Source of the DNA: Heterotrichella gracilis
Taxonomy: Eukaryota > Sar > Xanthophyceae > Tribonematales > Xanthonemataceae
Direction of reading: 5' to 3'
DNA: 64,000 nucleotides
Assembly: GCA_032358255.1 (NCBI GenBank)
Contig: JAULBX010027163.1
Coordinates: 62,001 to 126,000 of the forward strand
Shown here piece by piece: positions 2 through 63,600 of the stretch (its first letter is position 1; each line of letters begins with the position of its first letter). Made by a program: the position numbers and the translations under genes. The notes under the pieces are model-generated. The model saw only the letters and a program-made list of their open reading frames with translations. It was not told the origin of the DNA and did not search any database.

Positions 2-2614
2 GGTTGGGCATTTGCGTCTGATCAGGAGCGCACTGTGGCGCCCATTCTGCAAGGGGCGGTCACGCAGCTATCACGCATAGCGCAGGAGCGAGGGGGGAGT
101 GTGTCTGTGAGCTGTGCGGGGAGGACAGACAGGGGAGTGAGCGCATGGGGCCAGGTGGGGACTTTGGCCTTGCAGAAAACCTAGAATGTTCTTTTTCAAG
201 CATTTTTGAGGAATGTTCCCCCTGTCTTGGTGCTGCGCATGCCATGTGATCAAATGTGTCGCCATATCACGATATATTAACGTCCTCCTTGGGTGGCGTA
301 TGATGCCGGTGTTTAACAACATGAATTTGCAGGTATTTTGCTCATGACATTTTTAAAATTAAGTCTTAAATCTTGACCCCCTCAAGATTTAAGATGGCTA
401 CAGGTGTTAGGGTATTTCATGTAAACTGTCTTGTGACGGCTGTGCGTGGGATTTTTGGAGCACCCCAGCATTTTGTGCACCTGTTCCTGGTGCCAATGAC
501 GCACAGTCCTGGCTGGTGTTGGCTTACATGGGCTCTGCTGTCCTCCCCTCCAGATCATTTCCTTCCACACCTGGGATGACATCGCCCCTGAACAGGTGTG
601 CGCCGCCATCAATGCAGCATGCCCTGGGGAGCTGCTGGCGTGGAGGGCTCAACAGGTGCCCCGCTGCTTCCACGCCACCTTCCAGGTGAGAAGCACGCCC
701 GAGCAATTACGGTTACAATCGCGATCACATTCACCAGGTTAATACCCTTTATTACAAGAATGCCACCTTGTAGGTGAGAAGCATGCAACTTCAACTACAT
801 TCACAGGGAAGGCTTCCAGCCGGGCACTGAATAATGGTACACCTTGCGCATACATGCAACACCAAATCCTCACACATTGTCTGCCCGGGAGCATGGGCAT
901 GCGTGGCACATGCTGATACTCCCCCCAAAAAACACATGCTAAACCTGCCTGCTGTGCTGTGTCTGTGGTTTTGGAGTTGGGCTAACCATGAACCAGAAAC
1001 CCTGATGCACATGCCACCTGGAAGCAGTAGATGTATGTGTTAGGGCCTACCAAAACTGTACACGCTAAACCCTAAAGCATGTGCGCAAACCCACAGGCCA
1101 CCTGGCGGCGGTATGTGTACGTGTTCCCCTTGCGCGGGGGGGAGGGGGGGGCTCAGCACTGTGGCCATGGAGGCATCGACAGGGAGATGCGGCTGGATGC
1201 ACAGGGCAGGGCAGGGCGGGAGGGGAAGAAGGGCCTGGAGGACGGGGTGGATGGGGTGGATGGCGATCCTGACCACGCGCACAGGTGCGTGCGAGATGAT
1301 CACACATGATCAAAGGTGATCACATATGATCCTGACCACGCGCACAGGTACGTGCCAGATGATCACACATGATCAAAGGTGATCACATCTGATCACATAT
1401 GATCCTGACCACGCGCACAGGTATGCGTGAGATCATCACAACAGGTGCTGGGCTGTGGTTGCGCTATGGTGAACATATATGGACTCAGGAGGCCTACATC
1501 TGCGCCTCTCTTGCCACCATGCACCCCATGACATCCTCTTCCCATGCATGCCATGTCATGTAGGGGGAAATGGTCAAGGAAGGTGGAAGATGTGGGGGGG
1601 AAGGGGGCAGCACAGGCCACAAGCGCTTCCAACTGATGCATGTTGATTTGACATATGAGGTCAAATGCTACATCCATGGGCGCTAAAGCCTGCATCATTG
1701 CGCACTACCATGGCCACAGCAACGGGGTTGTCAACCCTCAGCAAATTCGGCATCCCATGGCCTGTGTACCCTAGCAAGGTTACCCAAGGGTTTTGCCTCC
1801 CCTGGTGCAGCCTGCTGCAGGCCTTGGAAGGCAAGGCCATTGACTTCTACGCTTTTGCGCGTGACACCCCCCCTGGCAAGGACTGCACCTGCCACATCCA
1901 CCGGGCTCGGGCATGGGAGGCTGTTCTGCCTGGCTCAAGGGACACAGGTGGGTGATGACGCAAGGTGGCTGGTTTATGGTCAAGGGTTGAGTGTTGGTCG
2001 CAAGGAGTTCAAGATAGAGCTCGCACTGAACCAAAATCCGGGTATGGGACAGCACAGATAGGCAACCCTTCCGCCAACTTCGCACATGCCACTCTGTAGG
2101 GACAAGATGACTACCATGAAAGTCAGTGCCATCTGAAGTCAGTGCTATCAAACAAGCATTTCTTGTTCCATCAGGCGACCATGTGCGCATGCTGTGCGTG
2201 GAGGTGGCCACCCACCGCTTCCTGCACAAGAGTGGAACAAGTTCCGTCCTCTCCGCAAACCCCACAACCACTGCTCCTCAGGGAAAGATTCTCACTCTGA
2301 AAACTTGCTCTTTTGATATTAAAAAAGACTTGATTTTTCCTGCAGGCGACCCTGTGCGCGTGCTGTGCGTGGAGGTGGCTGCCAACCGCTTCCTGCGCAA
2401 GATGGTGCGGGTGCTGGTGGCCACGGTGCTGCGCGAGAGCACTGCCTCGGGAGCTATGCACCCCGGGTCGAGCGATGCGCTGCTGCTGCTGGCTGCCGCG
2501 CGCTGCAGGCGGGGCACCGCGCCCTATGGTCCTGCCCAGGGGCTGTGCTTTGTGGAGGCTGGGTACTTGGATGACCCTCCGCCCACTCCCTGGTGTGGGG
2601 TGGGTGAACCCTAA
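2..2614 (+). CDS. tRNA pseudouridine synthase, TruA/PUS family (5' partial)
   Basis: Isomerises uridine to pseudouridine in tRNA; TruA-type enzymes act on the anticodon arm. Exons read: <2-154, 554-685, 1097-1284, 1811-1947, 2346-2614, with matching phases. Exon 1 carries the catalytic motif GRTDRGVSAWGQV, whose Asp is the family nucleophile. Exon 2 has FHATFQ and exon 3 WRRYVYVFPL, as in the TruA sugar-contact strands. Exon 4 holds ALEGKAIDFYAFAR, the 'L-G-x-HDF' region with the usual His replaced. Exon 5 holds ANRFLRKMVRVLVATVL and a C-terminal TAPxGL-like stretch (GTAPYGPAQGL). The start lies left of the window. The TAA stop sits inside a CCCTAAA telomere-like motif. Exon 3 has a Gly/Asp-rich insertion of about 45 residues. 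Three of its introns contain diverged copies of exon edges (listed separately). PUS1/PUS3/TruA subclass cannot be fixed without the N-terminus. Confidence 0.85.
761..786 (+). repeat. Junction echo of truA exon 2 donor
   Basis: This intron stretch repeats the end of exon 2 plus its 5' splice site (674-697): GCCACCTT, three changed bases, then AGGTGAGAAGCAyGC. It lies about 90 bases downstream of the original and keeps a usable GT. Confidence 0.75.
1265..1430 (+). repeat. Triple tandem repeat of truA exon 3 donor region
   Basis: Three units start at 1265, 1328 and 1401. Each begins GATCCTGACCACGCGCACAG followed by a GT donor (GTGCGT, GTACGT, GTATGC). The first copy is the coding exon end; the other two are intronic. 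The spacer is rich in GATCACA and TGATCA words. Confidence 0.85.
2175..2230 (+). repeat. Echo of truA exon 5 start (diverged duplicate exon edge)
   Basis: A 56-base copy of the start of the last exon (2346-2401), preceded by its own AG acceptor. It keeps the reading frame and encodes GDHVRMLCVEVATHRFLHK, against GDPVRVLCVEVAANRFLRK in the real exon. It lacks a continuation matching the family, so I read it as a dead or alternative exon. Confidence 0.85.
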
Positions 2615-3898: not shown

Positions 3899-6800
3899 AT
3901 GACGAAGACCCAGCACGGGGTGGCGCTGCCACTCCTTGCCTGTTTGCTATCCTTCGCCATATGCACTCAAGCTTGCCTACTTCCCTTCGACATCGTCGAG
4001 ACCGAGTCCCTGTTTGACGTCTCGGGCGTGGCTCCCATCGCTGGCAACTTCACCTTGTCCAACCCTGACGTCCCAGTGGGCCTCTCGGGCAGGGTGTTCC
4101 TTTCCCTCTTCGGCTCTTGCCCAACCACCGTGGATGACATCTTGGCGGCGGCTTCTCAGGGAGTGATAACCGTGCCTGAGGGTGCAAGCCCGCTGGCCTT
4201 TTACCCATCGCAAATCCTGCTCACAGTGCCCAACTTGGCCGATGTCTCGCTCCACTATCTGTCCCTCAACCTGTCGAGCGGGGACTTCAACGAGGTGCCC
4301 AACGGAGATATATCTGCGGTGTATGCGACGGAGTTTTTGACGGGCTACGCCACCACCACCTCGCAGATCAAGGTGCCCAGGGCGGACTTGGCAGGACTCA
4401 ACGCAAGCTTCCCAGCTGGCACGGAGTTCACAGGCAACGTACGTATATGCATATACACTAACTGTATATGCTGTTATCCTATCCTCCCACCACCTTGTCA
4501 CTGGGCAGTACGAGCGTGTTGTGCGTTGCTTTTTGGGCACTGTTTGGCATGTTGGCTCACGGCTGAGTGCCAGCTGTACTAAGGCACTTGTAGCGCACCC
4601 GATATACGGCGTTGTGCTTGCAAGCGCCCACTTTGTGACGAGGCCTATGCTCCGGTCTCCAAGGCTATGCACACAGAGAGCCCGTTTGGCATGCATCTGC
4701 ATATGCATGCCACATGGGTGCTAGCCCTCCCCTCCATACCAATGCATGCACACCTCCCCTGCCCCAGAGCACACACGCCTTCCCTCCCCACCACCACCAG
4801 CACCTCTACCGCATCGCAACTGCCTGCCCCCACCCACTCCACCCCACCCCCCCCCTTCCCCCCTCACCACCCACCACCACCTCCACCCCTGGCCGCTGCC
4901 CCCATGGGTTTGCTAATACCTTCTGGCTGCCACGCAGGGCACAAACGTGAGGCTCCAAATCTCTGGTGTCAAGTTCACCCTGACCTCCACAGTGGACCTA
5001 GGCCCAGTGCTTGGCCAGCAGACGACCACATACACTTTCAACGGGGTCATAAATGCAGAGGTGAGGCTGCAACCCCAAAACCCTTCGATATTGTCTTGCA
5101 GTGGCTAGGCTGCAACACCATACATGCGATGCTGCCCAAGTGTCGCCACCGCCAGCTTATGTCAGTTGGTGCCTGTGCACATGTTTACACCCACCACATA
5201 GCAACCAGCATGCCGCTGCATATATAGTAGGCCCTGGCCACTGCATATGTACTGATCCATGTGGGTGCGTGGCGCAGACGACGTTGGGGTGCACCCAGGA
5301 CTGCGGTATCCACGGCAAGTGTGTGGAGGCAAGCAGCGGGGGCCTGCAGTGCGAGTGCGAATGCGGGTGGAGCGGTGCGTGCGAACCCTAAGCCCTAGGC
5401 ACCACACCCTGCCCGCCCTAAACCCTCCCCTGCTCTCAGCTCCCTGCGTGCAACTCCTAAACCATACCTGTTTGTGCATGCAGGCGCCGGGTGCACACTA
5501 CCCTCCTCGCCTTGATTGGCTCTTCAGCTCGCTGCTCCCTTCTGAGTGCGTGCCAACCCTAAACCCTAAACATGTGTATTCGCAGGCGCTGGGTGCTCGG
5601 AGTCTGCTGGCTTCTGCCCCAGGTTCCCCGAGCTGCCCGGGACCAACACCACAGTGTCTGGCTCTGGCAACTGCCCAGGTGAGGCACCAAACCCTAGGCC
5701 TAAACCCTAAGGCTAATGCACCACACTGCCTGGCTCTAACAGCTGCCGAGGCACACCATCTCATACAATGGTCAACAGTAGCAGCTGCCCTAACTCTGGC
5801 ATCACAGCGCATGTCAAGGGCTGAAATCAAAACAACCCCACCCCACCGCATCCTCCACCCCCTTCCCCGTCTCCAATCCACAGGCTCAGGATGCGGCCCC
5901 ACCGAGCGCTTCAACTCAGTGGCCAACAAGTGCGAGTGCAACGACGACTGGCAGGGCGCATTCTGCGACGTGTGCGTCACTGACGCCGGCTGCTCGGCCC
6001 TGTACAACAGCGCGGGCGCCACCTGCAACCGCGACTTTGCCTACACCGCCAACACCACCTACAAGTCCTACGACTGCGATGTGGCGGGATCGGTGATTGG
6101 GTCCATCCTGGCCCCCAACTCCTTCCGCCTGTTCTGCAATACTACATCCAGGACCTCAGGTGGGGATCTGGGGTGGGGTGGGGGGTACATGTTTAGGGTT
6201 TAGGGTTCAGGGTCTCGGCCTGTTCTGCAATATTGCCTCCAGAGCGACAGGTAAGCACCAGCGGTGGGGTGGGAGGGTAAATACCCTGATCTTAGGGCGT
6301 AGTAGTTCCTGGTAGGAAGCCATGGCTGTATTGGTCAAAGTGGGCATTTTTGCTGTTTATGATTCAAGGAGCCACATGCATACGGCCACCCTAGCTGGGG
6401 ATCTACCATGTGGGCTGTCAAACTATGCACCCCCTTCTCCTCAACAGCCCGGTCAACCCTTCACTCTACAACCCCCCTTGCCCCACAGGCTTTGACCCCA
6501 ACAGCGTGGGCAACGCCGGCAGCAGCGCAGCGGCCAACATCACCGGCGGCGCCGAGGCCTCCTCAGGACCCTCTGGACCCTTCTGCGGGGTTGATCTGGC
6601 CCTAGTGTCCAACCCTAGCCAGCCCGTGAGCTGCATCACCACCAACTGCGAGTTCTACGCGGATGACCCCACCCATGTGCGATGCGCAAAGACCAACTGC
6701 ACCTGCCCCAAGGGCTGCCCAGGTGAGCCCAAGCCCTAAACCCTAAACCCTAAAACCTACTTAGCAACTGCAGCCTTACATTAACCCACCATAGCCCAAA

Positions 6801-9800
6801 ACCTCAAAGGCCTGCCCACCCTGCAATTTTGGCCGCCATCAGCTTGCACCTCCTCAACAGTAAATCTTAGAACCCCGTTTGTGCATTCAAAACCCTAAAC
6901 CCTATGCCGCACATCCAAAACCCTAACCGCCTGTGCCCGCCCTGCAGCCGCCGCCTCCGCCATCCTGGGTGTGCTGAACGGGGACAACCCTGTGGAGCTG
7001 ACCTGCGACCCCGCCACCGGCAAGTGCGACCTCAAGCTGAACGTGATCGAGGTGCAGGCGCAGTGCACGGCAGCGGATTGCGTGGTGCCGGAGCTGTCGG
7101 GCAACGGCGGCCTGCCCACAAGTGAGTGTGGGAGCATGGTTTGGGGTAGGGAAGGTTTTGGCGTGGTGCCAAAGCATGTATTGGGCATGCATTGGGCACG
7201 TGCTCGCGCAAGGTGGGGATGGGAAAGGAGATGTGTGTGAGGGAGGAAGATCTGTGTGCTTGGCAGCACCCATTTGGCTGATGCCGGTGCCATAGTGGGA
7301 ATTCTGAACCCAAACCCTAAACTCTAAACCCATCATCTAGGCGGCACCAACCTCGATAGCGCGATACCACCAGCGACGTCATAACGAAAACCCTCAACCC
7401 AAATTTGAACCTTAAACCCTAAACCCTAAACTCCACTCCCCATTTCCCAGGCGGCACCAACCGCGCCGGCGTGACCACCACCAGCGACGTCATTGTCTCC
7501 TTCCTGCCCGCCATAGTGCTGGCCGCCATTTACCTGGCTGTGGGGGCCTACATGCTCACGCACCACAGCATCTGGACGCGCTCCTCCGCCCCCTCGGCCG
7601 CCTCCCGCTCGCACGTGGATGACAAGGGGGCGAACATTATCGAGGAGCTCAAGTGGGAGCAGCTGGAGTGCTCGGTGCCTGTGGCCAGGTATAGCCTTTT
7701 TCAGTGCTTTTCATCCTTTTTCTTTGTGATTCTTCCTGTTGCTTTCCTTTTTTTCCATTGTGTCCTCCTCCTCTCGTTCTTTTGCATGTTGGGCAGCAGA
7801 CCTTGGATGCCTCCCTGGGATTCGGAACAGCTATGTCCTTTTTCCCGTTTGGGGCGGGCGTTTATTTATTGATTTCTGATCATTTCGCTGTTGCAGGTAC
7901 GGCTGGGCCACCAAGGCGTTTGGGAAGTTCAGCGAGCACCCACTGGGGCCACTGGCAGCCATCACCACCCCTCGCGCATCCAAACCTGGTGCAAGGTGAG
8001 CACAGTAGTCAGTCATAGAGTTACATGCATACCCGTAGTACAGCCAGATTAGCAGGCACTCTTGCACTTCAACCACATGTATACGCGTCCCCTTGCCTAC
8101 TCCTTAAATCCCCCACTTCTGCCAACCCTTTGACACTCCTTCCTTGCCATCCTCCCCCAGACCCCCCACCTCATCAACAACCCCCCACCCCCCCCACCCC
8201 CCACCCCCATCACCACACACCACCACCACACCCACAGGGACAACGTCGAGCTGTCCACCCTTAACACCCACACCACCAATGGCGACACCAACCCCACCAC
8301 CACCACCACCCAAGGGCCCGAGATGGATGTGGAGGACAGCGCAAATGTGGAGGAGCCAGTGGATACCCCCCTGGATGTCCTCCCCGCTGACGTTCGACTG
8401 GCGCACACCCAGGCTGGCACTAAGGTGCTGCTGTATGGCGTGAGCGGTGTGGCGCGCAAGGGGGACCTTATCGGCGTGGTCGGCCCATCAGGTAGGGGGG
8501 GAAAGAATGTGGTGGGGGTGGTGGGAGGTAGAGGCGGGCGGGGTGGTGGGTGGATGTGGCTGTGTAATCAGATAATGGGCGGAAGGGGGGGGTTGCCCCC
8601 GCATGGGAGACTTGCCAAAATGCAGCGTAGCTTTCAAGTCACGGGGCACACAAGGCATGCCGATGACGGCTGGGAATGCATGCCACCACAATCTGCGGCA
8701 TTGCTCATGGCTTCAGTCCATGTGGCTACCAACCCCAGTCACACACCTCACCACCACCACCCACGAACACCGCAGGCTGCGGCAAGACCACCCTCCTCTC
8801 CATCCTGGCTGGCGGCACTGGTGACCTGTCCAAGCAGTCCCGCGTCAAGGGGGATGTGACAGTCGACGGCCAGAGGCGCCGCGGGTGGTTCCGCCGCGCA
8901 GTTGCTTTCGTGCCCCAGTTTGACAACCTGCTTCCTACCCTGACCGTGGAGGAGTGCCTGCGCTACTCTGCGTTGCTGCGCCTGCCCAACGAAACTCCTC
9001 CGGAGGACATCCAGGTGGGTAGCGATTTTGGGGAGGTGGAGGTGCATGGGCAGGGTGGGGCTGAGGGGTGCGCTTGCATGCCACCTGGAAGTTGCGTGTA
9101 AGTGTAACTGGTGTAACTGGATTGATAGACCAGTAGTTCATGCACGGCACAATGGTTTTCGCATGGAATTGGGTGGTGGTCACGAGTGCAGTTGGCATTG
9201 AGAGGGGGTGATCAGGACTGGATTGTGATCACAGCTGCACCAATGGACAGGCATCGCCACTGCACAGAAGGATTCTCAATGCATCCCCACCCCCTATCCC
9301 TGACCCCTGACCCCGATCCCCACAGGCCCGCGTGGACAGCGTGCTCGGCGAGCTGGGGTTGCGCCACGTGGCGCAGTCCCAGGTTGGCGGCTCGGGCGGC
9401 ATCCGGGGCGTGTCGGGCGGCGAGCGGCGCCGCGTGACCATCGGCATGGAGCTGGTGATCAACCCTGCCCTGATCATTTTGGATGAGCCCACCTCGGGGC
9501 TGGACTCCAACACCGCCCTGGCGCTCATGTACACACTCAAGCAGGTAGGGTTCAATGGTGATGGGGTCTGCAGGGTGGTGTGGACAGTGAATGCCACGCT
9601 TGTTTTAGTTACAACCTGATGTGACGCGCAATATGCACTTTACCAAAAGTAAGTCGAGTGCCTGGCTGTTTGCTATTCAATTTCATTATAATCCAAGCGA
9701 CTCCCCTCCTTCTCCATCATATACACCTCCCACGCAACAGCTATTGGGAACAAGGAGCTGATCCCGTGCCTGATCCTGTGCCAACGTCAGCAAACCCCTC

Positions 9801-12800
9801 CCCACGCAGGTTGCCAGCGCGGGCCGCATTGTCATGCTTTCTTTCCACCAGCCCTCCCCCGCCATGTTCAACCTGCTGGACACAACATTCCTCATGGCCA
9901 AGGGCAGGTGCCTGTACTCGGGGCCACCAGGGGCAGCAGACGAATACTTTGCACGCCAGGTAGGTTTTGTTCATGGGTTTACTAGTGCTTTTTTTGAACA
10001 TAGTGGGCAGGTAGGCAGCAACCTTCCCTCACCTTCCTTGACCAAGCGCCTGCCCAGGAGCAGTTCTGCGCACCAATCTGTTCATGCTTTTTTTTTATCG
10101 AGGTACTGGCATTGAACCATCGGCACAGCCACCACCTGCAATGCAAGTTAGCCTGTGGCTATGTTTTAAAGAACTCTAGGTCAAAATGGAAACATGTCCA
10201 GGTTCACTTATCCGTTTATTCTGTGTGCCAGGGCCTGCCAGTGCCCCACAACACCTCTCTGGCTGAGCACATGCTGGACTGCGCAAGCGATGCGGGCGCC
10301 ATTCGCAAGCTGCTGGCCGCTGCTGAGCTGGTGGATGGGGGTGATATGGTGCAGGTGAGGTGAACGGGGTTGGGGAGGTAGGGGGCCTTCATGGGGATTG
10401 GAACGCGCTGGGCTGAATTGTTCTTAAAAAGGGTGTAGTCCCTTTGGGGTATCAGCCCGGGGGTGGGGCTTGAGTGGGTGGGTGGGTGGGTAAGCGGCAG
10501 GGATACCATTTGTTACCACCGGCTAGTTGTGGTGGCAAGGGGGCCATCTGGTGATGTCTGGTAGGGAGGGAATCGAGGCTGTGGGGGCATGCAGCAGTTG
10601 CCACATGTGAATGTATCACGCTTGCATGGAAAATATCAGTGTGTGGTGATTTGCCCATATTTTCTAGTGATATTGCCAAGTGAACATGTTCACACTGCGT
10701 GAGTCCCTTCTATCCACTTCCCTGCACCCACATACCAACCCTCCTCACAGGGCGACTCACCCGGCGCTGACTCTCCGTCATCCGACGCCGCCCCCGAGCC
10801 CTCGCCCTTCGCCACCCCCGCCCGGGACGCCCCAGGGGCCGGCGGGGACCCAGCCACAGATGGCGGGTCCCAGTCTGGCTCGGGCGCAGGCCCCAGCGGC
10901 AGCAACAGCGACAGTGAGCCGTCGCTCAAGCCCTACAGGTCTATGGAGCGCGGGGCGTCAATGCGCACCGCGTCCATGCAGTCCGCGCATTCGGACATGA
11001 ACCAGGTATGGCTTCATTGCTGCTGTACTGCAGCAAGCGACGCTCCTTTGCTCATGCCCCGCCACCGGTTCACCGGTGCAAACTGATTGTTAATGTGCCA
11101 CACTACCAGCCATCTGAAATGACCCTAGCCCTTGTCAAGCTGCCCTCGCCGTATCTCCCCCCGTCCTGCCTCCCTGCCCCCCCACCACCCCACCACTCCT
11201 CCCACTGGCCCACAGCTTGCCTCCCCGACCATCCCCCAGGCCTCAGTCTTTGGCAGGCTGCCCTCACCCCATCCCTCCCCTCTCTCCCTGACTCCCCACA
11301 ACCTCATCTTACCACTCCCCTTCCGCTTTCTCCCCCACAGGCCGACCCAGCCGCCCTCTTCATCGATCCCGTCAAGCCCTCCCAGGGCAACAACCAGGGG
11401 GCGCCGGTGCAGGGCACCATCGCCATGGGCATCCCAGTGCACCCTGTCCCCCCCATGATGTTGGCGGTGCCACCCACCTCGCCCCTGGAGGAGATGCGGG
11501 CTGCGGATGCTGCGGCTGCGGCTGCGGCGGCTGCGGGCATTGAGCAGCTGGACTCCGATGAGGAATTCAGCTTGGACGATCCTGAGCAGGTAGGTGGTTG
11601 GAGGTTTGGATCGTATTAGATAAGGTGGGATTATAGGTTATATGACGACTTCAGCTTGGATGAGCCTGAGCAGGTAGAGAATTACAGGTTTAGATCGTAT
11701 TAGATAGGTGGTATTATGGTTTTTTGATGAGCCTGAAAATGTGAGGAGTCCTTGCGCGTTGGCACCACAACGTTGTGGCTGACGTTTTCGAGTATTTCAT
11801 GATGAAAAGGTTAACTGCAACTACAATTTCAGTTCACAGGTACATCAACAACGACAAGGCTTCTAAGCCAATTAATAGAATAATAATATAATATTCTATT
11901 TAGCACGGACAGAAATTAGAAACTGGTAACCACTGTACTTATTTCCCTCGTGCCCCCTCCCCGCAGAACGTGCGCGACAGCCGCGCCCGCCGCCGCGTGC
12001 TGCGCCACGCGCGCTGGCACCGCGAGTTTGTTGTCCTGTTCTGGCGCACCTTCATCGACATCATGCGCAACCCCTCGCTGCTCATCATGCACTGGGCCAT
12101 GGGCATCATCATGGGCGTGGTGTGCGGGGCCATCTTCTACCAGGTGGCGGATGATGTGGGCGGCGCGCAAAACAGGGCAGGTGAGGACAAAGGTTCTTAT
12201 TGAAACCTCAAAAATAGAACTATTTTCAAATCTATGACATCAGCTTGTCGCAAAGGGCAAAAAACATTTGAATTGATGAACTGACACCCTTCCCCCCTTT
12301 TCTCCCCCCCCCCCCAGGTGGCCTTTTCTTCTCCCTTTGCTTCTTCGCCTTTGCCTCCCTGTCCACCGTTGACCTGCTCATGAATGAGCGCCAGCTGGTC
12401 ATGCGCGAGGTGCAGTCAAGCTACTACAGGCCAATCACATACCTCATCGCAAAAGGTACGGAGCGAAATGCAGGTTACACTATTTTGTGGGCTTGATAAA
12501 CTAGAAAAATCTTTATTATAGTGATGGCAGCGATTACATCTGTACCTGTTCATAAAGTCTTGTAATGTCAATAACATTCTTGTAAAATTCCCTGACGAAT
12601 GAATGATCACTTGCACGCGTTTAAAAAATACATCCAAACTTTTATCACAACAAAAATAGCTATCCCCTTTTTCTTATGTATGCCTCCCCCCTTGCAGCCT
12701 CCCTGGACGCCATCCTGCTGCGCGTCATCCCCGCCATCCTCTTCGCCATCCCCTTCTACCCCATGATGGGCCTGCAGGCCAAGGCGGTGCGCATCGCCTT

Positions 12801-18100: not shown

Positions 18101-21100
18101 CTGTCAACATGATGTGCTCCCTTGCCCAACCTCGCACACCTTGCACTTGCTGGACCCTGACTGGTGAAGCCTACACCTTCAACCCCGCCTTGTGTGAGGA
18201 TAGGAATAAGAACGATAATTAGTACCCGCTGCGGCTCGAAGTTCTGCCTTGTGTGGACTTAGGTCTCCTGTGTACACGCCACTGCTTGGTGCTTTGACTA
18301 GGTGGTTGCTTTCTCAAGTAACTCGTCGGTGGTGTGTCGTGCAGGCACCCTGCGCCAGCTGTACCGCACCGCCATGCAGCTGGAGGCAGACTTCTTCAGC
18401 GCTCAGCCCTTCGAGCCCCCTGCCCGCCCTGTGGTGGGGCTGCTGGTGGTGGACTTTGACGAGACATGCACCACAGACGACACCACAGGTGCGTGGGAAC
18501 TATGACTGCTAAAGCAGAGTCAAGAAGTACCACTCGATGTCAATGTCAGTCAGGGAACCCGTCTCGGAGATGGAAAACTACCAAAATTCAACCAAATTAA
18601 AACCAATACCAAACTACCCATCATTGCCTGTGACGGCAGGCATCGTAAGCATAGCCGCGTACTGTCGCAGGGAGGGTGATCGGTGCAGCTGTCGCTGCCG
18701 AAGAAGCGTCCAGGGGTGCATCAGAGGAGCCAGCAGGGGAGGGCGACGCTGGCCCCAGTGGGCGCCAAGACAAGCAGGACACCGCCAGGTGGCTGGTGGA
18801 CAACTTCTATGCACAGCGGACCTACATGCTCAGTGAGATCCTCCCAGAGGTGTGTGCACCAATGGAACCCTAAAACCCTCACCGTGCTGCAGGGTGGGTG
18901 GATGCACCTCGGCTGTCCTGGTCTGTATGCAGGAGTGCGATATGGCCCATGTGTCCGACAACATTTTTAAACTAAATTGCAGGGCTTGCGCTGCAGGTCC
19001 AATCTGCCCTCCAACAGTGTTTGAGTCTTGCCATGCACACAAGTTGGCATGCGCCCATCTCTTGCCACCGCCTACCCGTCACATGCTCCCATGGCAGTTT
19101 CTTGCTCACCGCATGCTTTTGCATCGGGTGTCATATGCAGGCAACCACACTAGTTGGGTTTTGTGGTGTGTTTTGTGACATTCCCAGCACGTGCACGCCC
19201 TTCACCACACTCTGCTTGCTTCATGGAGTAAATCATTATCAATATCTAATCTGCACATTGCCCCTCTGCTGTAGGGCCTCGCCTGCAAGCCTTCCTATGA
19301 CATCCAGTGGCTGTCTGAGTTTGTTGACAAGATGAGCAGCTTTGACCGCGAGATGAACCAGGTGGTGGTGGACACGGGGGTGCTGGCAGGGATACCAGCT
19401 GGCGCACTAAAACTGACAGGTAACTGGCCCGGTTCTCTTATATGTTCCACCTTAAAGTAGTCTTTTGTCGACAAAAGCAGATCGCCACGTGCGCGTGCTG
19501 CTTATTGGTCCGCACCTTGAATGGTTCCTGACATGTCCTGTCTAATTCTGAAGAATAAAACGAATTATCCTTGTTGTTCAAAAAGTGTTACCTCAAGGTG
19601 CTTAACAGTGAAATGAATCAAAATACCCCATATGCAGGCAACACCATAGGCCTCCAGCCAGGCTGCCTGTCGGTGCTGCGCCGCGCGCTGAAGCAGGGCG
19701 CAGACACCCACGTCCTGTCTGTGAACTGGTCATCGGAGATGGTAGGCGCTGCACTTGAGGCCGGTGTGCCCACGCGGGTGGGGCAGCCAGGGGGGGAGGG
19801 CGAGGAGGAGGCCAGTGGGGTTGGTGGGGGTGCGGTCACCATTCACGCCAATGAGCTGGAGTATGTTGGGGGCCAGAGCACCGGGGAGATTGTGCGGTGG
19901 GTGCGCTGGGTTGCGGAGGGGCTATGGGCTGGCTTGTTGAGCAAAATGGTACTGCTTCATGGCGTGGATATGCTGTCATGCACCATGTCCAATGTACCAG
20001 AGCGACATGGAAGTGCCTAGCTGTGCCAACCCGGCGTGCTTCCATGGACTGGGATGGCAGAAACTATACAACGTAGCAACAGGGATCTTCTGCGATCACA
20101 TTAAACTGTTCCAGATGCTGAGCCTGATTCAATTCCACATGCATCCAGGTCCATCGAGTGTGGCGCAGACAAGGGCATGGTGTTTGACCAGCTGCTGCTG
20201 GACGCCGCGGCTGAGCGGGGCTCGGATGGGGGCTTGTCGGTGTACATCGGGGATTCCATTTCCGACCTGCCTCCCCTGCTGTCTGCTGATGTGGGGATTG
20301 TGATGGGGTCCAGCGAGCTGCTGAGGAGGGCAGCGGAGGTGGGAGGGGTGGTGCTCAAGCCACTGTGTGCGGCAGCAGGTGAGGGTGGTGGACGGGAGGG
20401 CGAGCGGCGGTGGCTGGATGTTTTGTGGTGCATAAAGGGGGATTACCAGGTGCAAATAGTTGCAGCAAGGCAGCCAGATAGGCAGTGCATCCCCAACTGT
20501 ACTGGTGGCGCATGGCGAGGTGTAGGCTTTCACTTGGTCTAGGAGCTGGCTAATTGATGTTTTTGATATTCACGTGCAATTGACTTGACTGCTGGCTATG
20601 TTCCTGTTCCAGGGGGAGCAGGTTATGTGCAGGAGGCTGGGGTGCTGTACGAGGCCTCCTCCTGGCTTGAGGTGGAGGCGTTCTTGTTTGGGCCACAGCT
20701 CGCACAGCCACCCACCAACGGCAAGTCGCACGCTGCACCCAAGGTGAGGATCAGTTGATTCCACTGACAGGAATGGCTTCCTAGCGCGGCACCGAAGGGG
20801 GTTATTAAAGGCCAAGCAGCAGGAGACAAGCAGCCTGCACCCGTTGCTTTACCCTGTTACAGTCGACAATCAGCAATGTATTATTTAGAACCCTTGGCCC
20901 CTTCAGATGCCTTGTGTGCTCATATCCCACCCTGCCACGAGTACCCTACACACAACCCTAGCTAAAACCCTTGCCCCCTGCAGGTGCCCCGTGTTCTTGT
21001 ATTTCCACCCTGTCAACATTACCTTACCCATAACCCTACCCAAAATCCTGCCAAGATTATTCTAGCCAAACCCTACCTAAATCCCTAACTCAAAACCCTT

Positions 21101-24100
21101 GCCCCCTGCAGGTGCCCCGCGTGCTCACCGTCGCCGGCTCGGACTCTGGCGGCGGCGCAGGCATCCAGGCCGACCTCAAGACCTGCCTGGCGCTGGGCGT
21201 GTTTGGCATGAGCGCAGTCACAGCCCTCACTGTGCAGAACACGCACGGGGTGCAGGCGGTGGAGGCCACGCCTGTGGGTTTCATCCGGCGCCAGATGGAC
21301 GCGGTGCTGGGAGACATTGGGGCGGATGTGGTGAAGACGGGCATGCTGCCCACTGCAGATGTGCGGAAGGGGAGAAAAAGCTGAATAGGTTTAAAAGATT
21401 AAAAACAACCATTTCGAAATATAAAGCTTCAATCTTTAGCTTTATTAACAGCAATGCTTTAAAAATGAAACATACCTTGGAGTTTTCTGCTTCCAAATGT
21501 TTTAGGAAGAAAATGACCACTGCTATGAGCGCAGTAGTCGAGTGACCCTTGCGGTGTCGACCTGGCTGTGTATGCCATGTGGCCGCACGTGCATGCGGAG
21601 TGCATCCATATGCACCATGTGCCTGACCTGCTTTCTGTGTGTGCCACCTGGCAGGCAGTGGAGGCGGTTGCTGAGGCCATCCGATCACATGGCCCTGCCC
21701 AAGTGGTGGTGGACCCAGTGCTGGTGGCCACCAGTGGGGATGCCCTAGCCGAGGGTTCAGTGGTGCAGGCGCTCAAGGACAAGCTCTTCCCATTGGCCAC
21801 CATCATCACGCCCAACATCCCCGAAGCCAGCACGCTGTTGGGTGGGTGGACAATAACCCTTACAAAACCCTTATCAAAAGCCGTTTGCTGCGCCTTTGTT
21901 ATCCTACACGTTACCGTATCACTGCAAATTTGCAGATGGCTTGTGTGGGCTCATGCAAAACTCGATAAGTTCAAAATGCTCAGGCGCATTGGGCATGGAT
22001 GGCCATTGCTTGCACCACTTCCTGCTGAATTGCACCCCCGCATGCCGCAGGGGGAAAGGTCATAACTGACATCGAGGGGATGAAACAGGCAGCCATTGCG
22101 CTCTTTGAATTTGGTCCCAAATACGTGCTGGTGAAGGGGGGCCACCTCATCCCGCCAGCACATTCCAGTGGGGACGTGCCCGTGGCCAATGGGAATGCTC
22201 CCGCAGTGCCTGCCCAGCTGGCAGTGGATGTGCTGTATGATGGCAGCGAGTGTGTGCTGCTGCAGGCGGATGTGGTCAGGTACTTGGAGCCAAAGGGCAT
22301 ATGCATGATACTGTTGCTGGTGGGATCCTCACCTGCCACTGCCATGCTGCAGCAGCCCGTGTGCCTTCTCTCACACCCACTGCAACCCACCATCTTCCCC
22401 CCCTCCCCGCCCGCAACCCTGCATCGTGCGTTCACACACAAAGCACCGCCATCGCGCACGGCACGATGTGCTACCCCACCCCTCTCGCACCCCTCACTCC
22501 CCCCTCCTCCCCACCCACAGCACCGCCAACACCCACGGCACCGGCTGCACCCTAGCATCAGCCATCGCTGCAGAGCTAGCCAAGGGGGCAACCATGGCTG
22601 TGGCAGTGAGCGAAGCCAAGCGGTACCTGACCGAGACCCTGGGCCACAGCGCACAGCTGCAGCTGGGCACCGGCAGGCAGCGGCCCATAAACCACGGGTA
22701 AGGGTTTTGGCGAATGGGCAATCTGGACTGGGGTGGTATATCTGGCACGCATGTGGACTGCTGTGCCTTTGCCAACAGCTGCTCGCCATGCATCTCATGT
22801 ACTAAGGCATTAACTGTCATTATTTGAAGTGGCGCAAGATCTGCAAGAATGCAAAACTTGCTGACAGCAGTACAGTGTACTCCTGGAAGTAACTGTCACT
22901 ACCAACCAACTGTGTGACACATGGCGCTTGCACCATGCAGTTACATCTTGGCTCCAGACTTTAACCCACAGGTAAAAATCCGTTGCACAGGTGGCAGACA
23001 GCTGATTGGGCAGCAGGGGTGGCCAGCTGGAACACACATCATTTATTAGTTTGTTGATTTTCTCTTTGCACAGGTGGCAGACAGCTGATTGGGCGGCAGG
23101 GGTTGCCAGCCCATCCCCACCCGCATTCGACCTGTCCCTGTACCTGGTGAGCGACGCGGGGTGCAACGCGCGGTGGGGGCGCAGCAACGCGCAGGCGGCG
23201 GAGGCAGCAATCGCAGGGGGGGCTACCATAGTGCAGCTGCGGGAGAAGGACATTGATGGGGTTGACTTTGTGGCAGAGGTGCGGTTGCCATTGCTGGTGG
23301 TAGCGCCACGCGCTTGGTCATGTGCCTGGTATGGTTGTTCAAGTGGTCGGCACAGCAAGGGTGAGGGAGCGAGACCTTGGTACTGGAGTGGTTGGAATAG
23401 GGCAGGTGATGGGTGGAATTTTGACACCAAATCTTGCCTGCGCAGGAAACTGATTTTGTCATGCGTGCTGGACATTTCTAACGGAATAGTTTACTTTTTA
23501 ATACATCTATTACTAAAATCAGGAGAAATGTACTGTCAGCCCCACACATCCTCCCTCCAAGATACCCTCCTGAAACCCTGCAGGCTGAGGCTGTCCTGCG
23601 GGTGACGCGTGCCCATGGCGTGCCTCTCATCATCAACGACAGGGTGGATGTGGCGCTGGCGGTGGGGGCGGACGGGGTGCACGTGGGGCAGAGCGACATA
23701 CCCACAGCCGCCGTGCGCCGCCTGATTGGCCCCGGCAAGATCCTGGGTGTGTCGTGCAAGACCCCGGAGCAGGCCCTCAAGGCGCAGGCGGAGGGGGCAG
23801 ACTATGTGGGGTCGGGCGCAGGTGAGGCCTGGGGGGCAATGGCGGGGTGCGGGTGCTTAGATTGTGGTGGCTGCAGGGCGGTGGCACCAATGGCAGGCAA
23901 AGTGGCAATGGGTCATCCACCCGTGTGGAGGGTGAGTAGCGTGGATGTGGTATGCAGCCTGTTTATACACCTAATCAGGTCTAAGTCGCTGCATTTGATG
24001 CCGAGCATTGCGCACACGACATGCCGCTTAGCCTGGAACAGGGCATCGCCATCTGTTGTTCCCTCCCCTTCCATCCCCCTAGCACGCCCCGCCTGCCTCC

Positions 24101-40400: not shown

Positions 40401-41503
40401 GGCTAAAGGGAGTTTCAATCTGGAAGGGATGATTCCATTTTCAACAACGATTTGATTTTGAGTTTTTTGTGTTTTATTCGTTCTCAGCTAGTGTATGCGT
40501 AATGCCCTGCCATCCCCCAGGTGAGAAGTCCGACTGCCTGGCCAAGTTCTACGAGGAGGGCGCCATCGTGCTGGGTGCACAGTTTGAGGCCCCGCTGAAG
40601 GACTTTGTGCGCATGGTCAAGGCAGTGAAGGCAGTCATGGCAGACCGATCGGCTGCGCTGTCGGCACTGCAGATGGTACGTGGGTGTAAGGGTTTACCGT
40701 TGGGGTGAGGGCGCATTTTCTGAACCGCACCTGCTGTATCCAGTTCCTCACCTTGCATTGCCTTTGGCCTTACTGCCAGGCAGCTGCAGCTAGTGGCTGG
40801 ATCTACCCTGTGGCCGCATACATGCCTTTTGGGGTTCATGTAATCAATTGAGTCCTCTGTGGGCGTTTGTGTAGGCGCGGGCAGATGTTGACGCGCGGCG
40901 CACCAAGGTTGCCAAGCTGCGCGGCACCCCGGGGATCAAGGAGGAGAAGGTGGCAGAGGCGGAGCGGGACCTGAACGTGGCGCAGCACCACTCAGAGGCA
41001 GCCAAGAACACATACGAGGTAAACCATAAACCCTACATTACTCGGACGCAATCAAGAAGGAATACCAGGTGCAACCCTAAATCTCACACTACTCCGAGAC
41101 AGCTAAGGATGTATGAGGTGAAGCCCTACATTCCTAAACCGATCTGTAGCAGCTAATGCTCTTCTCTTCTCTTTCAATACTGGCATCATATTTCGTATGT
41201 GTTCTTGGCTCCTTTCTTTTAGGATTATTATAACTTAAAAAAATAAATAAACTTTTCTTGCATGGGTTCTTTTACCCTCCTGCCCACCATGTAATGTCTT
41301 CTAACCATCCCATGCTCATCACATGCTTTGTGCGCGTGCAGTTGATTGTGCAGCGCATGTCTGAGGAGCTGCACCGCTTCCAACGAGAGAGGGCGGTGGA
41401 GATGGCGGGCGTGCTGCGGGCGTTTGCAGAGGCGCAGGCGCGGCTGGCGTCTGACACGGGCAGCGTGTGGCAGGCGCTGGTGCCGCAGATGAATGGCCAC
41501 TGA
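37422..41503 (+). CDS. SNX1: Sorting nexin 1-like protein (PX-BAR, retromer)
   Basis: Predicted 442-residue endosomal protein that binds PI3P and bends membranes as part of retromer. Exons: 37422-37448, 37535-37639, 37737-37769, 37947-38015, 38261-38387, 38543-38652, 39043-39129, 39557-39650, 40096-40311, 40521-40675, 40875-41018, 41342-41503; the total is 1,329 bases. The start MSSNPF and PPPPYESV form a short tail. The PX domain shows VIRRFRDFSWLHQRL, the lipid-contact loop IIIPAMPEKS and FIETRRQALSLFVNRV. From about residue 235 a long helical BAR (Vps5) domain follows, ending in WQALVPQMNGH. The gene is the richest in exon-edge echoes: five of its introns carry them. Confidence 0.93.
38395..38470 (+). 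repeat. Telomere-like tracts and echo of SNX1 exon 5 interior
   Basis: GGGTTTAGGGTTTGGGGTT and TTTAGGGTCTAGGG are followed at 38450-38470 by GTTCTGGGACTTCTCGTGGC, a copy of coding sequence at 38338-38357. This copy comes from inside the exon, 30 bases before the donor. Confidence 0.8.
38666..38720 (+). repeat. Echo of SNX1 exon 6 donor
   Basis: After CGGGTTTAGGATCTAGG, the stretch 38681-38720 repeats the exon end and donor at 38617-38657: GCAAGCGCTCAG, a T-run, then TCAACCGAGTGGT. Confidence 0.88.
38890..38994 (+). repeat. 21-bp minisatellite, five copies
   Basis: Tandem units CATTGTAGTCAACTGGCATTT/A with one or two changes each, inside intron 6 of SNX1. Confidence 0.92.
39138..39203 (+). 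repeat. Echo of SNX1 exon 7 donor
   Basis: TCTAGGGTTTAAACCTAAAC is followed by a copy (39161-39203) of the exon end at 39092-39133: TGTCAGAGC, CTGGGACTTCAGGATG, then GCAGGTAG. Confidence 0.88.
39893..40045 (+). repeat. Two echoes of SNX1 exon 9 acceptor
   Basis: The real exon start (40091-40135, encoding RSDDEEEDPDYL) is preceded by copies at 39893-39935 and 40000-40040. Each has AGG(G/T) and GCGACGACGAGGA-like sequence. Their 3' parts drift into GATCACACC words. Confidence 0.88.
41020..41133 (+). repeat. Echo of SNX1 exon 11 donor
   Basis: The end of exon 11 (40985-41033) is copied at about 41090-41133: CTCCGAGACAGCTAAG, TATGAGGTGAA, then CCCTACATT. CCCTAAA motifs lie between (41029 and 41075). 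Confidence 0.75.
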
Positions 41504-41957: not shown

Positions 41958-41958
41958 T

Positions 41959-57830: not shown

Positions 57831-59721
57831 TCACACTGCCACAGTGACGCGGCACTTTCCCTTGCCACTACAGACAGGGCCAATGGCCATCTCCCCATCC
57901 ATCCACAGGCCAACTGGGTCCCTCAGCATGGCAAATGACACCTTCCCCGGGCCCATATTGTACACCCGAATCATAACGTACATCATCGCTTGCTCAGGTG
58001 GTCCCTTCCCAGCTCTTTGAGATACAGCATCATGGTGTGTCTTGCATGCAAGCTCCCACTCATTCTGCGTCAGGTAGAAGGGCTGGAAGTCACCTGTGTC
58101 CGTGGTGGACTTGACCTCAATGTACACGCCCGTGCCCGGGGCACCTGACAGCTTGCCAGGGACATCTGTGTACAGGAAATCGTAGGCGGGCTCGACATCT
58201 GGTGGATTGTGCCCAGCGCCAAGCAGGGTGCGGTTGCTGGATTGCCAGTGGCGCTCATCAAAGTCAGGGAGGAGGCGTCGCAGGAGGTGGTACACATGCA
58301 GCTCTCCCAGTGCCCCTGTCTGCTGGTTGCGCATCTCCAATGCTGCAGCCATGATAAATTCCTGTCATATATAGGAATTACATTAATGTATCAATTACAT
58401 TAATTTAAGAAAAAGGTAGATACTGCATGCCACATCTCCAGTGCGAGGGTGCCCTTTGGAGTGAAAGAGAGCGGGCCTGATTGGTCATTCATTACGTGTC
58501 CCTACCATTCGCTGCAGCCCCACCCGCACATGATGATACGCTGACGTCCGCATCTGCATTACCTCCTGGGACTGTTGAGAGATTGCTGTCGTCATCCACG
58601 CAGGTCAGTAGAGTGGTTTCAGGCTGGGCTGCGGCACATGTCTCCAGCCAGCTGTGTGTGCAAGGACGTATTGGGCGCTCAATGTCCTCCCAGTCAATGC
58701 CAGCACCATGCACCCTCCTGTGCAGAATCAACCCATAGCTGCGGTAGGCCATCGTTGCCCGGCGGCATTAGGACCCATTTTGTACCCTGCAATGCGTACA
58801 CCGCCCCTGGTGCCTGCAAAGCAGCCAACAGGTGAGTACTGTATGCTTCATGAATCATCACCGGCGCTTGCTTATAACCAGGGCCATTTGAACACAGACC
58901 CAGCATGGGCCAGCTCACTGTTGCAAACCTGTGCCTACTCAGCTGACTGCAAGGACACAGTAGCAAATTCAAGGTGGCAACACCTCGCAACTGAATGGTG
59001 CAAATTGGTTGTGCGCAGAAGCAAAACCAGTCAAGTAGTGCAGCAACCGCAGCTTTTGTGTAGGGTTTCACCTGGGAGCCAGGTGCTGATTTTGATCTTG
59101 TGGCGTTGCTGGTTTGCCTGCAGCAGTGGGATCCACTATTGACAACTGCCAACCACTGGTGCATTCGATAGCAATTGGAGTCAGTGCAGCAGCAGTGCAG
59201 CAGTGACCAACCCTTACCTGCTCCCGGCCTTGGCTAGCACCGCCTTGACCCTCGGGTGTTTGAGGAACAGCTCCCTTGCTGCATTCTCGTCCTTGCCACT
59301 TGCGAGGCAGTGGACCTCCAGTAGCTTTGCCAGGGCCTTGAACCGGGTTTGCAACACCTCTCGGGATGTGCAGCGCTTGGACTCTTCGTCTAGGAACGCA
59401 CTCAAGCTGTCTACTCCAGCCTCCACTGTTGCAAGTGCACCTTGCAGACTTATGTCCTGTACCCTCAGATAGCCCAGGTAGCTCCTTATGGGACCGAGCC
59501 ACGTGCTCCTGGTGCTTTCAGCACACTTCAGCCAGCAGGCCAAGGCCCTTTCTTGCTGCTGGGTCCTGGGCCCAGGGTGCAAGTTGCATTGTCAGCACCA
59601 GGCCTGCCGAACAATGTCAACTAAGTAGAACCAGTGCAAACAGCGGCCAAAACAACAAGCCGCACCGGTTAGCCGCATTATCATCGCACAGCTCAAGCAG
59701 GAAGGAGGGCAAGCGCTCCAT
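57831..59721 (-). CDS. DUF3883 / NO VEIN C-terminal domain protein with helical N-terminus
   Basis: Predicted protein of roughly 400 residues. Exons in transcript order: 59721-59666 (start MERLPSFLLELCDD), 59565-59218, 59117-59072, one or two exons between 58813 and 58506 that I could not fix, and 58342-57831. Residues 20-135 look all-helical (SYLGYLRVQDISL, SLSAFLDEESKRC) and resemble nothing I know. The last exon is a DUF3883 domain: QTGALGELHVYHLL, PAYDFLY, GTGVYIEVKST, then a Gln/Asn-Glu-Trp helix and a beta-rich end. The Asp and ExK spacing fits a PD-(D/E)xK nuclease fold. It is clearly a paralogue of the C-terminus of the neighbouring SBNO protein (shared GALGEL, YDF, G-x-PGTxVY, VKST). 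An ATG at 58752, just after an in-frame stop, offers a shorter two-exon alternative. Confidence 0.72.
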
Positions 59722-60674: not shown

Positions 60675-63600
60675 TTACCAGTCCAACCTGTCCAACTGGC
60701 TCTGCAGGTTCACCCCCTGCATCTGCGCCTCCAGCCGGCTGTACAGCACCGGGCACTCGCCGTTGCAGCACCACACAGACCCCGAGATGCCCCCGCTGTG
60801 GCACCGCCCACAGGTCACCTGCGCGCTATCCAGCCTCCTCTCAGCCACGTTCAGCGCTTCCAAGTACTCCATGTACACCCTCTCCCACACCCCTGGTTGG
60901 CTGCTGCACGACTCACAGAGGCCTGGCGCCAGGCCTGCGGTGGGCGGCAGTGGTCGTCTGTCCCCCATGCAGTTTGCAGTCTGCTTGAAAAACTGCCGCA
61001 TGCCCGACTGCCGGCCCCCGGCGCTCTTGCGGCGGTCCCCAGCTGCGCCATTGGCGGGGGCGTAGGAAGGGAGCATGGGGTCTTGGCGCACAGTGGTGTG
61101 GGGCCCGTTCAGCAACGCCTGGATAACATACAGCATGGTGTCAAGTGGTGTGTGGGGGGGGAGCTGGGATTTGGGCTTATATTATTTTAATATTGAAACC
61201 CACTACCATCAACATAATTAGTACACATACATATGACCACTGGGTGTCATGCCTCACCGCGCAAATTTTTGAGCATTGCTCCACACCCTGCACGCTTCAC
61301 CCCCCCTTTCTCCCTCAACTGCACAAACACCTATCAGCGGGCATTCCCCCACCCCGTACCTGCAGCTCTCGGGCATTCAGGCACGTCTGGAACATCTCGC
61401 TCAGCGGCCGCTTCAGCTTATTCTGCCAGTACAGCTCCAGGTTGGGGCCTCCCCGCCCGCCTCGAGCCGCGGCCACAGGCTCCTCTGCTGCGTCATCCTG
61501 CAGCGCATGCCCCGCCAGCAGCACGTACTGCAGGCGCTCGCCCAGCACGAAGGAGCGGCCAGGGTCCCGCTGCTGCAAGCGCACCGCCAGGGCCACGTGG
61601 GGGCCGCGCACCTCCTCCTCGGCCGCACCTGGAGGGCGAATAGGGTTTAGGGTTTGTGCTGTGGGATGGTTGTTGGAGACGGAACGCGAGGTCTGTGGGG
61701 TCTGCGCACCTCCTCCTTTCCCCCACCTTGAGTATTGTTTTTTGTAATCGATTTATTATTATAAATGCTTTTTATTTTCAGCATCGAATTTTACGTATTT
61801 AATGGTGGGTGGTATTCCAAGTAGGGCATATTACGTGAGATATCTCGAGGATTGTTGGGTGTGGCTTTTGTATTTAAAGCTGTAATCAGGGGGAATGTAA
61901 TGTCATTATTAGTGAACAAGTGAACAGTCGCATATTTGACGGCAACACCAATTCTAGAACTCTCCCTTGCCTGCCGCACCTGTTGCTGCGTTCTCCAGCT
62001 GCTGCCCTGTGATGCGCCACAGGCCCCCCGTCATGATGAGCTCCCACAGCGACACGTGGCCGCTCAACAGGCGCCGCACCTCCCCTTCGACAAACGCTAC
62101 AGCCCCCCTGGAGGCACACCACACCACAGCATGACAATCTTGAGACATGTCTCAGTGCCACATGCCTGATGTGGCACCAGAGTCAAGGTCATAACGCAGC
62201 AGAAAAGGCAGATTCAAGTAATCTAGTGCATGTGCATAAGTGCGCACAATCTCCTTCCACTATATGAGAGCATTAAATAGAAACCAGCAACAGCTACTCA
62301 TGGTAGACAATTAGCACCCCTTGATATGAAGCAAACATCCCACTCACTTGACATCCTCCTGCATGATGATGCGTATGAGCGCCCCGTGGAGGGTGCGCCG
62401 CACGATTGGTGCCGTCTGTCGCCACATGCTCTTCAGGCCCTTCACCATCAGCTCGCCCTTTCCTCCCGCAATGTCTGACTCACGCTCAAAGGTGCGGCCG
62501 GCATACCTGGTGAAGCAGAAAAGCTCTTGTAAAGAGCAGCATGTCGAAAAACATACAAGCTCACAAAGGAAGATCAGAGACACAATACGTTCAGTATCAG
62601 TATCCATGGTTGCACCCAGTCTTGATCAATTCGCCATGCTACCACAGCATTTGCCGCCGGCAGTCAGCGCCTTTGCCATAGTCACAAAAGGCCACTGTCC
62701 CTTGCCCTACCCAAGGGTAATAAGATAATAATAGGTCCTAGTACTATCCTTTCACCCTTGCCCCACCTGTTGACATGCAGCAACATAAAGGGGCAGGAAA
62801 TCTTCTCAAACTTGAGCTCCATTGGGGGCGGGAACGCCTGTGACACCAGCCTGGATGCCAGCTGACCAACCTCCAAGGCCTCCAGGGGGGTGGCATCAGG
62901 GAGGTGAAGGAATAGGGAGTCGGTCTTGGGGGAGAGGGGGGCAAGGTCTGGTGAGTTATGACATGATTTACGGTAGAAGTGCAAGGGTCGGGAAGATGAT
63001 GAGACTGTGAGCGAATTGATATTTCCCTTTTGGAATTTTATAGTTGAAGATCCTGTTTTTCTTTGCGACATTTGTGAAAACCCAATTTGTGTATCACCAT
63101 CCACACCACAGCACGTCATCACCTCCCACCTGCGCGTAAACCACCCTCCCCCTCTCCCCTTTAGGCCCCAGCTGGCCCCCTTTGGCCAGATCCTCGATGA
63201 CCTCGATTGCCCGCCTGCAGCTCTCTGCCCCCAGCGCCAGGCAGGAGTCTGCCAGGGGGACGCACTGAAGCATGGATGCGCCTGCCCCAGTGAAGCCATA
63301 CAGCGCATTGGCAGTCACCTTCAGAGCCTGCACAAGGGGAGAATTATATGGTGCTGAAAAGGGTGGGGCAAATCTTCTAAGGCAGAGAAAAGTAACCTAT
63401 GTAAATTGTTGCTGGAGTTAAGTTGCGCCGTATACCCCATTGTGATTGGTGTGGATTCCAGGCCACGTGTACCTAGCTTGGGGGCAGCCGGTTCCCATGC
63501 ACCGCGCAGGTCAACTCAGCACAAAAGTCAGCCACACGCACCTTTTGCCTGGAATCCAGGATTGCTCGTGCAGCAGGATTGGTTGCCGTTTTGAGTGCCG

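Follow-up and report, generated by a model that had tools for sequence, protein, structure and literature searches.

Telomere repeats flanked by a direct duplication of the target at staggered breaks are known in mammals, and the excerpted accounts give target duplication with 6 of 130 telomere insertions in rodents, 4 of 25 in primates and 3 of 66 in the horse, at sites that look random and with an intronic share at chance (PMC2246262, PMC7215372). Where breaks have 3' overhangs, the formation of small tandem duplications is described as requiring CST and polymerase alpha-primase, which is the machinery of telomere fill-in (PMC8355091). In the potato RdRp gene, a tandem unit extends across an intron/exon boundary, splice signals included, and a cryptic donor created a new intron there (PMC4974935). 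The route of intron gain of Rogers and Hellsten also starts from local duplication of exon DNA that contains AG/GT, and it predicts similarity between opposite edges of the intron (PMC4974935). The present analysis deals with a 64,000-nucleotide (64-kb) stretch of Heterotrichella gracilis contig JAULBX010027163.1, hereafter the window, from which all counts below are taken. Its introns carry, close to the working splice site, diverged copies of the adjoining exon edge (here called echoes), and about half of these copies are joined to the edge through telomere-type repeats.

The mammalian insertions differ in that, here, the telomere runs adjoin splice sites and a duplication is present in 12 of the 16 telomere-bearing introns. 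The CST system is similar through its small tandem duplications, formed from staggered breaks by the telomere fill-in machinery; however, it was studied at Cas9 nickase breaks in cells of mammals, and telomere filler is not mentioned in the excerpted account (PMC8355091). The potato unit has the same position across the boundary, whereas the echoes of the window remain inside one existing intron.

The intron set comprised 95 introns of ten genes, whose exons were placed by hand and without RNA evidence; a home-made gene finder served as a guide alone, as it over-predicted small exons. Among the modelled introns, 94 have GT-AG ends and one has GC-AG, and in these hand models the content of guanine plus cytosine (GC) is 61.6% for exons and 49.8% for introns, compared with 53.4% for the window. 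For the trebouxiophyte green alga Coccomyxa subellipsoidea, similar figures are on record, namely 59% for exons, 49% for introns and 53% overall (PMC3446292). Self-BLAST was run with telomere-like motifs masked and a cut-off of 30 bits. Direct pairs at or above this value numbered 28 at offsets below 250 bp, none at 250-1000 bp and 11 at longer offsets. By reading, 22 of the 28 short-offset pairs join an exon edge to its own intron and three join two echoes of one edge; the remaining three lie wholly within introns (a single 21-bp array accounts for two of them), and none is intergenic. Inverted matches of at least 30 bits were found 21 times at 0-100 bp, mostly as hairpins or palindromes, and once at 100-250 bp.

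In a separate edge test, the 60 nt of each exon edge were aligned with the exon's own intron, and two controls were used, the reverse-complemented introns and the opposite (far) edges of these exons. A z above 5 was reached by 6/95 donor edges and 6/95 acceptor edges, in comparison with 0/76 and 0/78 far edges and 1/95 and 0/95 reverse-complemented introns. The floor of the p value (0.0033) was reached by 7/95 donor and 8/95 acceptor edges, and z was preferred because the reverse-complement donor control also reached this floor in 5/95. An ungapped scan returned 50 segments at offsets of 25-255 and, in windows of equal width, 14 (400-630), 2 (700-930), 4 (1000-1230) and 2 (1500-1730). Through anchored alignment, 24 echoes were placed in 20 of the 95 introns, with three additional candidates. 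The exon-edge echoes are thereby confirmed as a real observation, both in their position and as duplications.

A preliminary description of this DNA had listed 19 such sites, 17 of which reappear in the self-BLAST list. One of the two absent sites, 41090, corresponds to a diverged copy at 41036-41069 (p 0.0066; ungapped score 67), while the other, 5478, is weak and comes from the gapped anchored alignment alone (35/59). Site 28911, which is in the list, is a perfect 16-nt match of which just 6 nt are exon. Four echoes had been overlooked (1008/1092, 5647/5719, 22435/22512 and 38337/38449), together with the three candidates (5054/5097, 21566/21635 and 38171/38250).

Of these results, the most interesting is the joining of echoes to splice edges by telomere repeats, and it rests on one 64-kb window. 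In-register 9-mers of TTTAGGG/CCCTAAA number 133, in comparison with 0-11 for 15 shuffled heptamers, and their non-terminal location makes them interstitial telomeric sequence; 120 are intronic, 12 intergenic and one exonic. Such 9-mers are present in 12/20 echo introns and 4/75 others (Fisher p 3e-7), on a list of echo introns that combined the motif-masked search with the sites of the preliminary description and was fixed after the repeats had been noticed. In all 12 telomere-bearing echo introns a run separates the working splice site from the echo and thus has direct target copies on both sides, an arrangement lacking in the 8/20 echo introns without 9-mers. In the donor cases, the run ends at most 4 nt from the start of the echo (7/7; about 4e-4 under random spacer placement). 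The 27 intronic telomere runs lie at a median of 19 nt from the nearest splice site, where random placement gave a mean of medians of 76 and 0/20000 trials as close. With a tolerant score, 13/27 spacers reached p ≤ 0.03 for telomere similarity and 14/27 ranked first of 20 heptamer classes. An apparent paradox, fresh telomere repeats beside decayed echoes, dissolved on extending the arrays (340/427 matched columns vs 414/565 echo columns). No report of telomere repeats at splice junctions was recognised among the titles and abstract starts of one paper collection. The echoes and repeats are as follows.

762..786 (+): donor-side echo, TruA-like exon ending 685 (32.8 bits to 674-698)
1013..1041 (+): acceptor-side echo, exon start 1097 (31.0 bits; 23/29)
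1062..1078 (+): telomere-type repeat between the 1013..1041 echo and the acceptor (18 nt to acceptor)
1328..1440 (+): two tandem donor-side echoes, exon ending 1284; exon parts end at 1347 and 1420, GATCACAC-type spacer (132 and 50.9 bits; exon parts 20/20)
2175..2231 (+): acceptor-side echo, exon start 2346 (z 17.2; 54/61)
5097..5120 (+): candidate donor-side echo, exon ending 5060 (score 76, offset 43)
5484..5536 (+): weak acceptor-side echo, exon start 5586 (anchored 35/59; absent from self-BLAST, edge-test and ungapped lists)
5554..5572 (+): telomere-type repeat between the 5484..5536 echo and the acceptor (13 nt to acceptor)
5698..5711 (+): telomere-type repeat abutting the donor echo 5719..5751 (gap 0)
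5719..5751 (+): donor-side echo, exon ending 5678 (z 6.6)
6190..6213 (+): telomere-type repeat abutting the donor echo 6215..6251 (gap 2)
6215..6251 (+): donor-side echo, exon ending 6159 (z 7.4)
7341..7383 (+): acceptor-side echo, exon start 7451 (z 11.6)
7388..7433 (+): telomere-type repeat between the 7341..7383 echo and the acceptor (telomere-run mapping)
11642..11730 (+): donor-side tandem copy of 11558-11648, exon part to 11673 plus intron part (81.5 bits; intron part z 7.6)
20886..20997 (+): two acceptor-side echoes, exon start 21112, with degenerate telomere-like spacers (59.9, 35.6 and 62.6 bits; spacers p 0.027 and 0.031)
21566..21598 (+): candidate acceptor-side echo, exon start 21655 (score 66)
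22444..22480 (+): acceptor-side echo, exon start 22521 (p 0.0033, z 3.5)
22983..23027 (+): youngest-looking acceptor-side echo (96%), exon start 23074; rest of the 83-nt offset without match (73.4 bits; intron part z 1.5)
26747..26809 (-): donor-side echo, donor edge 26855 (z 25.9)
26812..26842 (-): telomere-type repeat at the join of the 26747..26809 echo (4-nt overlap with the echo start)
27809..27856 (-): acceptor-side echo, exon edge 27744 (z 8.9)
28797..28888 (-): telomere-type repeats separating acceptor edge 28764 from its echo (telomere-run mapping)
28910..28925 (-): short acceptor-side echo, edge 28764 (16/16 nt, 30.1 bits)
38171..38209 (+): candidate acceptor-side echo, exon start 38261 (z 4.1; score 74)
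38400..38452 (+): telomere-type repeats at the join of the donor echo 38449..38501 (telomere-run mapping)
38449..38501 (+): donor-side echo, exon ending 38387 (30.1 bits; 36/55)
38663..38678 (+): telomere-type repeat abutting the donor echo 38679..38716 (gap 0)
38679..38716 (+): donor-side echo, exon ending 38652 (z 10.4)
39139..39151 (+): telomere-type repeat abutting the donor echo 39154..39196 (gap 2)
39154..39196 (+): donor-side echo, exon ending 39129 (z 10.2)
39892..40040 (+): two acceptor-side echoes, exon start 40096; exon parts start at 39895 and 40003 (50.9 bits; z 12.7)
41020..41037 (+): telomere-type repeat abutting the donor echo 41036..41069 (telomere-run mapping)
41036..41069 (+): diverged donor-side echo, exon ending 41018 (p 0.0066; score 67)
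61640..61656 (-): telomere-type repeat separating acceptor edge 61628 from its echo (11 nt to acceptor)
61669..61726 (-): acceptor-side echo, edge 61628 (z 7.9)

So, the echoes are of two kinds, with and without telomere filler. A GATCACAC minisatellite is common to the spacers of two echo loci without such filler; the GATCACACNT-type minisatellite lies at 1299-1403 and 39932-39974, in the spacers of two echo loci of different genes (41-43 bits).

By anchored alignment, the copies run to the exact exon boundary and fall inside the intron, and reading of the alignments showed AG or GT retained in 21/24 echoes. Within ±12 nt of 23 echo sites, summed agreement without gaps is 235/299 on the exon side and 129/230 on the intron side, a difference expected if one exon copy is constrained while both intron copies drift. 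The exon parts differ from copy to copy by 0-41%, with insertions and deletions. The intron side is also duplicated at loci A3 (z 14.3), D7 (9.1), B16 (7.6), B3 (6.2), C10 (6.1) and A4 (4.3), the match in B3 and D7 being partly due to the telomere repeat in both copies; homology of the intron part is absent at C14 (z 1.5, with an exon part of about 95%), D5 (z -1.0) and F5 (z -1.2). Differences at codon positions 1, 2 and 3 amount to 38/243, 29/250 and 48/252 (p 0.10; 21/24 echoes used), a spread typical of near-neutral DNA rather than of coding exons; a coding function of the echoes was rejected on this ground. Echo introns have a median length of 366 nt and other introns of 239 nt (p 6e-4), a contrast to be read with the greater room for detection that longer introns offer. 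With introns taken as independent, echoes by gene fall in 23/63 introns of six genes vs 0/32 of four (hypergeometric 1.4e-5). The four echo-free genes (42617-56972 and 34617-36275) are SRP19-like and NUDIX-like by eye, strawberry-notch-like, and a cyclophilin. Across the genes of the window, the share of echoes did not correlate significantly with GC at third codon positions (rho 0.49, p 0.15).

The preliminary description had interpreted these copies as repeated local duplication across exon/intron boundaries and, further, as intron growth or gain in progress. Local duplication is supported, with exon edge, splice dinucleotide and adjoining intron copied in order, the intron side being clear in some cases only. 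Gain in progress is not supported. Similarity of the intron end to the end of the upstream exon exceeds the 99% level in 1/95 cases, and similarity of the intron start to the start of the downstream exon also in 1/95, where 1.0 is expected for each; the geometry of gain by AGGT duplication, which predicts both cross-edge similarities, was therefore rejected. The end of the upstream exon and the start of the downstream exon, which would betray target duplication around a whole intron, exceed this level in 0/95, and insertion of whole introns, introner-like insertion with such duplication included, was rejected on this count. Nor was an introner-like sequence common to many introns found within the window, where six far pairs reach at least 32 bits and three of them are the GATCACAC minisatellite. 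Terminal repeats within introns, another candidate, exceeded the 99% level in 5/95; three are introns of 69-79 nt with overlapping test windows, and the other two have the telomere repeat at both ends. As each echo copies the exon edge of its own side, it is pre-existing introns that were enlarged, and the conclusion that boundary-spanning local duplication lengthens existing introns is supported.

Telomere runs at about half of the joins suggest that breaks at junctions were patched with chromosome-end sequence. Repair of staggered breaks at splice junctions with telomeric filler is the best reading of the whole, held here with about equal measures of belief and doubt. DNA ends would arise near exon/intron junctions, probably through a staggered break, and, both ends carrying junction DNA, 20-80 nt or more would be duplicated. 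Telomerase may then lengthen one single-stranded 3' end, and the ends would be filled in by a CST-directed polymerase alpha-primase and joined, giving the order copy, telomere repeat, copy; we infer these steps by analogy, the proposal being a combination of the mammalian filler repair with the CST-dependent tandem duplication. The outermost splice site would be kept by selection because with it the protein stays unchanged, while the inner copy would turn into intron and decay. Net growth per event may be about 50-200 nt, with one edge sometimes hit repeatedly. A bolder form of the proposal, which is unlikely, holds that in certain genes of this lineage exon/intron junctions are preferred sites of DNA ends, which the cell would handle like those of chromosomes; telomerase and the fill-in machinery would extend and unite them, and each intron would expand from its splice sites by successive layers of telomere repeat and echo.

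Several observations weigh against repair with telomeric filler, and some of them lend weight to plain tandem duplication (by slippage, template switching or unequal exchange), in which pre-existing telomere-like arrays would have been fragile or slippage-prone sites that were copied along; this is a real possibility, though we lean against it. About half of the echoes have no telomere repeats (8/20 echo introns are without 9-mers), and A3, F8, A4, B16, C13, C14, D5 and others need no telomerase. Whole-unit copies with matching intron parts, as in the six loci from A3 to A4 given above, are what plain duplication would leave, and B3, B7, F11 and D7 have telomere runs on the far side of the echo as well, which fits a tandem unit that already held the repeat. 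Interstitial telomere repeats are, moreover, described as unstable (PMC6410037, in excerpt). The orientation of the repeat fits lengthening of the end with the working site in 10/14 cases, which is not significant (p 0.18), and TTTAGGG, described in an excerpted source as the ancestral green-algal telomere repeat, may not be that of the host (PMC8226300). Plain duplication is, however, at odds with most of the telomere-bearing cases, namely B4, B5, F5, F6, F7, L5, D3 and A2, where the repeat lies between the copies only and not after the second, and with C14, D5 and F5, whose intron parts lack homology. The echo at 22983, about 96% identical and without a matching intron part, is explained by break repair with filler and not by plain tandem duplication.

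The concentration at exon edges could also be one of ascertainment, duplications occurring everywhere and those at edges remaining visible through the conserved exon copy. Slower decay of exons does favour detection there, and the true age distribution of duplications is uncalibrated. The ungapped scan gave 23 loci at exon edges vs three that are purely intronic (five with low-complexity arrays) and two short intergenic segments. Yet a simple simulation of detectability, with uniform ages and the exon copy held fixed, put the edge share of detectable duplications at 49-57%, compared with the observed 23/26 or 23/28 (P 3e-5 to 5e-3), and telomere runs, detectable without an exon copy, crowd beside splice sites as well. 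Ascertainment is thus improbable as the full explanation, and the evidence that duplications prefer exon edges is good but not conclusive. Echoes or telomere runs might instead be selected elements or decoys that tune splicing, for example through a CCCTAAAC branch site or G-runs near donors. The dinucleotides retained in most echoes would suit such a role, as would CCCTAAA located 11-18 nt upstream of four acceptors and the motifs GGGTT (9/69) and AGGGT (7/69) near the donors of other introns, vs 0/65 and 0/65 in intron middles. However, anchoring at the site itself favours retained dinucleotides, the telomere arrays are degenerate overall, frameshifts and non-synonymous changes occur in the echoes, and CTAAAC is rare near other acceptors (1/69), all of which makes selection for splicing very improbable. 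An artefact of assembly, with collapsed or chained haplotypes, is hardly conceivable, since the exon parts mostly differ far above allelic difference and the telomere-repeat join is systematic.

Should the bolder form of the proposal be correct, splice junctions would be hotspots of breakage and telomerase a long-term builder of introns. If the pattern is genome-wide, it would furnish a dated, readable record of intron lengthening, in which the working exon serves as reference, and would tie intron growth to break repair and telomerase. Two questions would become testable in this way, namely whether breaks are concentrated at splice junctions and whether, in algae, the enzymes of the telomere also work on ordinary breaks. 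For annotation there is a warning, as intronic exon-like copies with intact AG/GT can pass for alternative splice sites or exons.

Among the genes of the window, Pfam supports a TruA-like gene, an ABC transporter, a TenA/ThiD/ThiE chain, a PX-BAR/Vps5 sorting nexin, a DNA polymerase B, an FAD oxidoreductase with a Rieske domain, Trm112, an AAA_34 (strawberry-notch-like) gene and a cyclophilin. Genes H (about 44399-45661) and K (about 57806-59568), with exons unsettled, were left out of the intron set. Two models have stretches without a clean frame, the strawberry-notch-like one in its second half and the polymerase one in its first two exons, and the introns of these stretches are less certain; no listed echo lies in these introns. 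Relatives were not found for gene B (537-aa piece; viral contigs) or gene F (442-aa protein; genome contigs), and no tRNA genes were found in the window.

TenA, a middle part and ThiD-ThiE seem to form one gene at 15141-24384 (+), provided that the 1808-nt intron 16537-18344 is real; the middle part is HAD-like by eye, without a Pfam hit. Antisense within this intron lies a Trm112-like gene (PF03966) at 16876-17228 (-). At 25649-31948 (-), the FAD-dependent oxidoreductase (DAO) is fused with the Rieske domain in a single gene, whose introns hold long imperfect hairpins resembling miniature inverted-repeat transposable elements (30421-30565, 30730-30842 and 31437-31578). Near-perfect hairpins occur as two adjacent ones at 41920-41992, downstream of the sorting-nexin gene, and at 29605-29637 in an intron. 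Finally, a sorting-nexin intron contains a 21-bp tandem array of five copies at 38889-38992, which is not an exon echo.

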